A stretch of DNA of 64,000 nt from Gammaproteobacteria bacterium (GTDB lineage Bacteria; Pseudomonadota; Gammaproteobacteria; Magnimaribacterales; Magnimaribacteraceae). The translations under genes were made by a program, and so were the position numbers. The DNA lies in contig SGZM01000001.1 of the NCBI GenBank assembly GCA_004214065.1, positions 1-64,000 on the forward strand, written 5' to 3'. The notes below the pieces were generated by a model. It had not been told where the DNA came from. It saw only the letters and a program-made list of their open reading frames with translations, and made no database searches. This document shows positions 36,868 to 42,036 of this stretch, piece after piece (the stretch's first letter is position 1; every line of letters begins with the position of its first letter).

Positions 36868-39566
<2,699 letters not shown>

Positions 39567-39567
39567 T

Positions 39568-42036
39568 TTAGCTTGCTGCCATTTCCACAGCCTGATCTAC
39601 ATCAACTGCTACCATTCTTGAGACACCTGGTTCTTGCATTGTCACTCCCATAAGATGCTTACTCTTTTCCATGGAAATCTTATTATGTGTAATATAAACA
39701 AATTGGACTCTATGGGACATTTCATCAACTAAATCTATAAACCTCATTGTGTTTAGGTCATCTAGAGGTGCATCTACTTCATCAAGCAAGCAGAAAGGTG
39801 CTGGATTTAATTCAAAGAAAGCAAACACAGTGGCTATGGCAGTTAAGGCCTTTTCCCCACCAGATAATTGTGAAACACTTGCATTCTTTTTACCTGGAGG
39901 CCTTGCTGAAATACCTATTCCACAAGTAAGAAGATCATCTCCAAGCATGACCAGTTCAGCATGACCTCCTCCAAATAATTTTGGAAAAGATTGAGACAGA
40001 CTGTTATTTAACTTATCAAAAGTATCTTTAAAGGTAGTTCGAGTTTCTTTATCAATTTTTGTAATTGCCTTTTCCAGAGTTTCAAGGGCTTCCATAAGTT
40101 CATTATGTTGCTCATCGAGTAAGTCCTTCCGTTTGGATTCCTGATCATACTCTTCCATGGCAGCTAAATTAATAGCGCCAAGTCTAGAAATCTTCAACTC
40201 AATTGACTCTAGATCAGAAGAATAGGTCTCTACAGACTTATCTTGCTCTAAATCTTCTCTTATTTTAGAGAGGTCTCCTTGAAGATCTTTAACCTGTTCC
40301 TCAATATTACTTTGTTCTATCTTGGAAGCCTGCCTTTCTAATCTTAGATTTTCTAGAAGTTCTCGCAAAGTGATTGCTGCCTGTTCTTTTTCTATTTTTT
40401 CTCTCTCTATTTTATGGATCGAAGCATTGCACTCTTCTATTGCCTTTCTGGACTCTAATAACTTGTTTTCGACTTGTAACCTATCTGATAACAATTTATC
40501 TAAAGTTTGCTGAATTTCATTGATAGGTTGCTTTAGCTCCTGAGATTCTTTTTCTAATGAAAGGTTCTCTTTATTTAAATCCTGAAGCTTATTATTAATA
40601 TGAGAATCTTCAGAGTTAAGAGATGCTAACTTTGCCTGCAGTTCAGCATACTGATCAGTTTTATCAATTAAGTTTATACGTTGTTGCTTAGCTCCTTCAG
40701 AGGCATTAATTAAAAAGTCTTGCGTGAGTTTAGTCAGTCTTACGGGTTCCTTCTCAAGATCATTAAGTTCTTTGCTTAGGGACTCAAGCTTGTTAACTGC
40801 CTCTTCGACTGGCTCATTTTTAGAGAGTTTGGTTTTAATTGTTTTGATAGAGTCAGACAGATTAGAAAGAACATTCTTTGACTGAGTGATAAAAACAAGC
40901 CAAGAACCTTCTATTTTTTCAGCTTCGACTTTATTTGGTTCTTCATCTGCTCCCTCTTTAAGTGACTGTAATTCATTTTCAATACTTGTTAATTCTTTCA
41001 ATGTTAGAGATTTATTATTTTCTAAACCTTCAATTTCTTTAGCTCGTGAACCTATTTGAATATTGTTAGTTGTAATTTTTTCACTTATCTCCTGCACTCT
41101 GCCTTTTTTTAATGAAATTTCTTGTTCTGTTCTAGAAATATCTGCCCCAAAACTGTAAAACTCTTGTTGAACCTTATCTAAATTAGTTTGCAGCTCAATT
41201 TGTTGTGCTCTTAGTTTAATAATCTCACTATCTGAAGTATTTTTTTCAGAATTTATCTCTTCAACCTTGAGTTCTTGGTCTTTTACTTCTTTTTCTTTGG
41301 TTTGAAGTATTAAAGAAACATCCCTCCATTTAGACCCTAAAAGCATTAATTGAGCTTTTGTCTCTTCTTTCCTTAGCTCATGATATTTTTCAGCAGCTTT
41401 TGCTTGCCTTTGCAATTTGAAAAGCAATCTAGAAATCTCTTCCCTAAGATCTTCTAATCTAGATAGATTTTCTTTAGTTCTTTTAATCCTTGATTCAGTT
41501 TCCTTTTTTCTTTCTAGGTAGCGAGATATACCTGCCACTTCCTCTATATAACCTCTCATCTCTTCTGGTTTAGCACTTACTAATTGAGAAATCATACCTT
41601 GCTCAATAATGGCATAAGACCTTGGCCCTAAACCTGTTCCTAAAAAGACATCAGTAATATCTTTTTTTCTGCAACTCGTTCCGTTTAAGTAGTAGTTAGA
41701 TTGACCGTCTAGCTCCAAACTTCTTCTGACTGAAATCTCACTATAACTCGAAAATTCCCCTCCAATCCTCCCCTCTTTATTATCAAAAAATAATTCAACA
41801 GATGCCTTAGAAACTGGTTTCCTTGAAGAAGAGCCATTAAAAACGACATCTGTCATAGAATCGCTTCTTAAATTTTTAGCTGAGCTTTCTCCCAATACCC
41901 AACGAACAGCATCTATTACATTAGATTTACCACACCCGTTAGGGCCAACAATACAAGACATACTTGAAGGAAAAGTGACTGAAGTGGGGTCTACAAAAGA
42001 TTTAAAACCAGAGAGCTTTATTGAATTAAGTCTCAT
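39568..42036 (-). CDS. smc: SMC-family chromosome segregation ATPase, short form without hinge
   Basis: An 822-residue SMC, against about 1160 usually. The N-terminal head has Walker A GPNGCGKS (31-38) and SYAIIEQGMISQ; the C-terminal head has LSGGEKALTA (from 724) and Walker B FCLLDEVDAP (D752, E753). Between them lie a coil (about 172-360), a linker with proline and SWLVF (361-445) and a second coil (about 450-600). I see no SMC hinge fold and no CxxC zinc hook, so each arm is about 200 residues. The frame is intact and both heads are complete, so it should be an ATPase; dimerisation must use something else. Followed by zipA and ligA. Confidence 0.9.
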   Translation of the reverse strand: MRLNSIKLSGFKSFVDPTSVTFPSSMSCIVGPNGCGKSNVIDAVRWVLGESSAKNLRSDSMTDVVFNGSSSRKPVSKASVELFFDNKEGRIGGEFSSYSEISVRRSLELDGQSNYYLNGTSCRKKDITDVFLGTGLGPRSYAIIEQGMISQLVSAKPEEMRGYIEEVAGISRYLERKKETESRIKRTKENLSRLEDLREEISRLLFKLQRQAKAAEKYHELRKEETKAQLMLLGSKWRDVSLILQTKEKEVKDQELKVEEINSEKNTSDSEIIKLRAQQIELQTNLDKVQQEFYSFGADISRTEQEISLKKGRVQEISEKITTNNIQIGSRAKEIEGLENNKSLTLKELTSIENELQSLKEGADEEPNKVEAEKIEGSWLVFITQSKNVLSNLSDSIKTIKTKLSKNEPVEEAVNKLESLSKELNDLEKEPVRLTKLTQDFLINASEGAKQQRINLIDKTDQYAELQAKLASLNSEDSHINNKLQDLNKENLSLEKESQELKQPINEIQQTLDKLLSDRLQVENKLLESRKAIEECNASIHKIEREKIEKEQAAITLRELLENLRLERQASKIEQSNIEEQVKDLQGDLSKIREDLEQDKSVETYSSDLESIELKISRLGAINLAAMEEYDQESKRKDLLDEQHNELMEALETLEKAITKIDKETRTTFKDTFDKLNNSLSQSFPKLFGGGHAELVMLGDDLLTCGIGISARPPGKKNASVSQLSGGEKALTAIATVFAFFELNPAPFCLLDEVDAPLDDLNTMRFIDLVDEMSHRVQFVYITHNKISMEKSKHLMGVTMQEPGVSRMVAVDVDQAVEMAAS

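Follow-up and report, generated by a model that had tools for sequence, protein, structure and literature searches.

The window, that is, the whole stretch of 64,000 nucleotides analysed here, carries an smc gene whose product of 822 amino acids (aa) is a hinge-less derivative of Smc and not an SMC protein of canonical architecture. The loss of the hinge is fixed throughout the SAR86 order. The protein probably acts as a core-only Smc-ScpAB motor, from which the outer arms and the hinge have been lost and in which the arms are joined by a family-specific helical tip. Textbooks give the hinge as the site at which SMC proteins dimerise; it was long thought to be essential, and its function is under debate.

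The smc gene and its product

The first-pass annotation of this DNA described an open frame encoding complete N- and C-terminal ATPase heads, placed in the normal smc-zipA-ligA order and devoid of a CxxC zinc hook. All of these statements were borne out. The gene is an intact ORF with an ATG start, open throughout, and the Walker A (G31-S38), signature (L724-E728) and Walker B (D752-E753) motifs lie where they had been placed, in columns that are invariant among 30 aligned sequences. No CxxC motif occurs anywhere in the 822-aa protein, and no MukB family was present among its Pfam matches or among the NCBIfam matches listed. The features of the locus are collected in Table 1.

Table 1. Features of the smc locus in the window
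Feature	Position	Strand	Evidence
smc, hinge-less Smc ATPase, 822 aa	39568..42036	-	ORF; TIGR02168 825 bits; no hinge
N-terminal ATPase head, residues 1-165, Walker A 31-38	41542..42036	-	bacterial Smc heads as nearest solved structures
N-terminal coiled-coil arm, residues 170-361, 192 residues	40954..41527	-	AlphaFold helix 170-361
Mid-arm contact region, residues 290-321, motif QxxFYxxGADI at 290	41074..41169	-	motif match, B. subtilis 4N
Helical tip at hinge position, residues 362-446	40699..40953	-	AlphaFold, purifying selection, family-specific sequence
C-terminal arm, residues 447-640, joint motif LGAINLAA at 619	40117..40698	-	AlphaFold, L217 alignment
C-terminal ATPase head, residues 641-822, signature 724, Walker B 752	39571..40116	-	alignment, solved-head matches
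zipA-like gene, same-strand neighbour	38904..39566	-	conserved order; named by position and first-pass annotation
ligA, NAD-dependent DNA ligase, after zipA-like gene	36868..38895	-	ORF; L042 homologue Pfam-confirmed

The protein scored 825.5 bits, in two stretches, against TIGR02168, the NCBIfam Smc equivalog (cut-off 567.35). In a family profile search, solved bacterial Smc heads were matched with E-values of ~1e-130, while Rad50 reached only 1e-6 to 1e-5, and the best Foldseek match of the AlphaFold model was an Smc head from Pyrococcus that includes coil and joint.

The order smc-zipA is conserved in the SAR86 loci examined. In several genomes of one SAR86 family (f3), an ATP-dependent DNA ligase gene (PF01068, PF14743) follows smc-zipA, replacing the NAD-dependent ligA (L039:2437-3723, L043:1828-3114, L046:8980-10263 and L044:7680-8965); in L044 this gene is broken into two ORFs that overlap.

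Absence of the hinge

No match to PF06470 (SMC hinge) was found by Pfam in the window Smc at E<=1, nor was there any above the cut-off in the 203 genomes of the SAR86 order, 40 of which are at least 90% complete. The six weak matches in the order's genomes (E 0.03-0.16) come from frames of 44-290 aa and are well below the cut-off. Outside SAR86, 182 gammaproteobacterial genomes were sampled; 154 of them contain PF06470, for the most part in open frames of ~1150-1250 aa. A missing PF06470 match alone is not proof of hinge loss: three full-length gammaproteobacterial Smcs of 1157-1170 aa (L216, L220 and L223, from G217, G254 and G359) gave no match even at E<=5. Because of such misses, the hinges of 15 gammaproteobacterial Smcs were used to make a custom HMM limited to the globular hinge columns. 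This profile gave 22-202 bits on most hinged Smcs and recovered two of the three hinges missed by Pfam (L220 was still missed), and every SAR86 sequence scored at most 4.1 bits, with 1.4 bits for the window protein. The first-pass annotation had claimed that the hinge is absent and had named a profile search as the means of refuting this; Pfam and the custom HMM agree with the claim, no hinge being detected in the window Smc.

Alignment with a hinged Smc (L217) revealed where the two architectures part. Residues 1-323 of the window protein correspond to 1-323 of L217 and residues 504-822 to 851-1169, both without gaps, and between these blocks L217 has 527 residues (outer arms and hinge) versus 180 in the window Smc. 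The heads, neck, joint and mid-arm contact are collinear with those of hinged Smcs, with zero gaps. An alignment of the EGSWL segment of the window protein with the end of the hinge was rejected as chance, as its glycine is not kept in relatives. It is barely credible that a very diverged hinge is still present and was overlooked by the profiles: PF06470 does miss L216, L220 and L223, and the custom HMM L220, but these Smcs keep their 1157-1170 aa, whereas the window protein has 180 residues against their 527, and its AlphaFold model shows only helices there.

Distribution within the SAR86 order

The relatives of the window Smc that were identified by name are encoded by SAR86 cluster bacteria, represented by single-cell genomes (SAGs) and MAGs from many projects. 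An Smc match was obtained in 179 of the 203 genomes of the order, and all 97 distinct full-length SAR86 Smc sequences retrieved are short (727-996 aa versus the canonical ~1165 aa), the intact hinge-less ORF being found across four families and 22 genera. The comparison with related marine genomes that the first-pass annotation had proposed yielded the same short form of Smc throughout SAR86. The lengths fall into discrete classes: 821-827 aa in the family of the window (f1), 809-810 aa in f2, 727-733 or 995-996 aa in f3 and 732-736 aa in f4. An assembly deletion was ruled out, as independent SAGs and MAGs encode the same short form; deletion or gene decay would be next to inconceivable given one architecture in 97 distinct sequences of such independent origin, open frames and a low pN against a saturated pS.

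Retained core and partners

Residue 290 is the first position of the motif QxxFYxxGADI in each of the SAR86 length classes tested, as it is in the G343 lineage (see below) and in most hinged Smcs. The distance from the head to this contact is therefore exactly kept between SAR86 and most hinged gammaproteobacterial Smcs. In Bacillus subtilis, the 4N arm-to-arm contact at about residues 290-320 governs arm opening (PMC13186564). The cut in the SAR86 Smc lies just outside the mid-arm, and the joint motif INLAA of the C-terminal arm is kept. This would set the core needed for function at residues up to ~323 and from 504 on.

Of the 203 SAR86 genomes, 171 gave ScpA and 172 ScpB, with matches in all 22 genera and in 39 of the 40 near-complete genomes. 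A search for scpA and scpB elsewhere in the genome of the window, which had also been proposed, located both, adjacent to each other and encoding proteins of 279 and 196 aa. ParB was present in all 40 near-complete SAR86 genomes searched and was not found in the window's own genome, which is 73% complete.

The helical tip

The window Smc was modelled with AlphaFold as a single chain from 30 sequences (mean pLDDT 71.5, the heads being poorly modelled at that depth). The model shows long coils joined via a small helical tip (368-442): a helix at 170-361 is followed by short helices at 368-405, 411-428 and 430-442 and by a helix at 447-584, with zero strands between residues 123 and 691. The pLDDT of the tip is mostly 70-82 and falls to 49-54 at its edges. 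A linker had been placed at 361-445 in the first-pass annotation, and the predicted tip helices show this placement to be correct. In the model of the f3 form, which is shallow (26 sequences), the coil turns at 339-342 with almost no cap.

Among near relatives, pS was near saturation, and pN rose from 0.01-0.04 in the heads through 0.11-0.19 in the arms to 0.21-0.34 in the tip. These values indicate that the tip is under purifying selection, but loosely constrained, and that selection is strong on the heads and arms. The tip sequences differ between SAR86 families and are among the least conserved parts of Smc; the SWLVF motif is only partly kept even within the window's own family. The length of the tip is tightly kept within each family.

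Arm lengths

The N-terminal arm of the window Smc comprises 192 residues, compared with ~340 in hinged Smcs. In the f3 Smcs of 995 aa (L040, L041, L045, L046, L057, L140, L142 and L143), the inner arm is repeated in tandem on either side of the coil: the second copy has ~120 residues in the N arm and, with the joint, 143 in the C arm, which gives two joint motifs; in L045 the joint motif differs. In pairwise segment alignments of two sequences, the arm copies of L040 were identical at 64/132 and 58/130 positions, far above shuffles, while self-BLAST of the 995-aa forms did not detect the arm repeat. In a tree, the outer arm copies are monophyletic (100/99), and the inner ones fall with the 732-aa forms. 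Long and 732-aa forms occur side by side in the same f3 genera. This pattern suggests one arm duplication, followed by losses or exchange. A link of the SAR86 arm lengths to the ~91-residue period (PMC5344682) was considered and dropped, since the arm ends are too imprecise.

A 1.5-Mb genome (G205) encodes a 1000-aa Smc (L215) that keeps the hinge (PF06470, 33.7 bits) on shortened arms, and arm shortening without hinge loss is therefore possible.

Proposed mechanism and alternatives

In the proposed scheme, the ancestor of the SAR86 order would, on the simplest view, already have lost the outer arms and the hinge, and a short family-specific helical tip would have joined the two arms. The Smc heads would bind and hydrolyse ATP, ScpA-ScpB would bridge the neck and head of two protomers, and ParB would load the complex. 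We infer that the dimer is closed in the hinge's stead by pairing of the arms at the helical tip, at the retained mid-arm contact or at both, and that the SAR86 Smc extrudes loops on clear DNA but has lost hinge bypass, there being no hinge gate for stepping past tethered obstacles.

This core-only reading has a parallel in an engineered Wadjet without the hinge, which acts on DNA when its dimer is closed (PMC12647877). In that complex the part from elbow to hinge was replaced by nine residues and DNA cleavage, the readout of extrusion, was intact with an engineered disulfide, whereas reducing the disulfide abolished activity and obstacle bypass was lost (PMC12647877). Liu et al. (2025) proposed that the hinge is there for obstacle bypass and that extrusion itself can do without it, and suggested that loss of hinge bypass accompanies longer arms (PMC12647877). 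Some observations speak against the core-only reading. A family-specific and, judged by its sequence, poorly conserved tip is odd for a dedicated dimerisation domain, a role that the first-pass annotation had suggested for the linker; the coil of the f3 form is predicted, in a shallow model, to turn back with almost no cap; and the arms of SAR86 are mostly shorter, whereas bypass loss was suggested to go with longer ones (PMC12647877).

Alternatively, the tips may stay unjoined, like those of open tongs, the protomers being held only by ScpA bridging and ATP-dependent head engagement. Such an arrangement would fit the low conservation of the tip from one family to the next and its near absence from the f3 model, as well as the retention of ScpA and ScpB. 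It is nevertheless unlikely: the core-only Wadjet complex is inactive once the bond of its dimer is broken (PMC12647877), and the tip is still under purifying selection, with its length tightly kept within each family. A partner encoded elsewhere might instead join the two tips in trans and take the place of the hinge, and a tip that has to match only its own partner could explain the family-specific sequence; this is quite improbable, however, with zero PF06470 matches above the cut-off in 203 genomes, no candidate beside smc and nothing positive in its favour. Finally, a head with arms and without a hinge resembles Rad50 in outline, and the protein might have left the Smc-ScpAB pathway to become a Rad50/RecN-like repair ATPase. 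The TIGR02168 score far above the cut-off, the match to Smc heads at E ~1e-130 against 1e-6 to 1e-5 for Rad50, the missing CxxC hook and the retained joint motif, ScpA, ScpB and ParB make this highly improbable.

Other hinge-less lineages

Hinge-less Smcs, with longer arms, were also found in two other gammaproteobacterial lineages with small genomes (~1 Mb). One of them is G343 (L213) and its order (L228-L250; 25 genomes searched), with complete hinge-less Smcs of 929-950 aa, and the other is G240 (L214), with a hinge-less Smc of 936 aa. ParB was present in 4 of 4 genomes tested of these lineages. A head tree limited to gammaproteobacterial Smcs places SAR86 in one clade (99/97) and the G343 group in another (100/100). 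The best tree requires three changes of hinge state, and zero bootstrap trees have one; the backbone is poorly supported and the starred branches are compatible with a single change. From these trees, the hinge losses are likely, although not proven, to have been independent. It seems to us an even bet that at least three small-genome gammaproteobacterial lineages (SAR86, the G343 order and G240) are hinge-less, at least two of them independently and with Smc-ScpAB-ParB kept, and that core-only extruders without hinge gating would thus be natural and evolutionarily stable.

Relation to known systems and significance

The SAR86 Smc shares with bacterial Smc-ScpAB (TIGR02168) the heads, neck, joint motif, residue-290 motif and the partners ScpA, ScpB and ParB, and differs from it in the missing hinge and outer arms (822 versus ~1165 aa). 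Like Rad50/SbcC it is a head-coil-tip ATPase without an SMC hinge, but its head is of the Smc type and it has no CxxC zinc hook. MukB, MksB and JetC are likewise SMC-kleisin motors, and no hinge channel exists in MukB, Wadjet-II or Wadjet-III (PMC12647877), yet these proteins retain a hinge domain and have other partners. The core-only Wadjet JetC is similar in that a short linker replaces the part from elbow to hinge, with heads and inner arms kept; it belongs to an engineered JetABCD with an added disulfide (PMC12647877), whereas the SAR86 protein is a natural Smc-ScpAB component with an 85-residue tip. In B. subtilis, a Rad50 zinc hook in place of the hinge allowed normal growth on rich medium (PMC5344682). 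The zinc-hook Smc and mini-Smc of Burmann et al. (2017) show that the hinge fold is exchangeable and that certain shorter arms work, but those constructs retain a replacement dimerisation domain (PMC5344682), of which none is known in SAR86.

Hinge-less SMCs are not wholly new, given that Sussfeld et al. (2025) reported oceanic ones annotated as Actinomycetes and lying near actinobacterial SMCs (PMC12153180). These are also marine proteins with heads and coils, without a hinge or CxxC and with no second normal SMC reported, and the section describing them does not mention partners, arm-length classes or a preserved core (PMC12153180). SAR86 belongs to the Gammaproteobacteria and forms one clade in our head tree of gammaproteobacterial Smcs. 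The SAR86 case thus concerns a different class, with order-wide fixation and with documented partners and core. In the open-licence PMC papers searched, SAR86 does not come up in connection with hinge-less SMCs, and neither order-wide fixation nor intact partners, a preserved core or discrete arm lengths in SAR86 were found there.

The SAR86 Smc raises the question of how a chromosome is organised when roadblocks cannot pass through a hinge. It also offers a minimal SMC motor for structural work, and the SAR86 order, abundant in the ocean, provides a ready natural test of the claim that the hinge is dispensable for extrusion.
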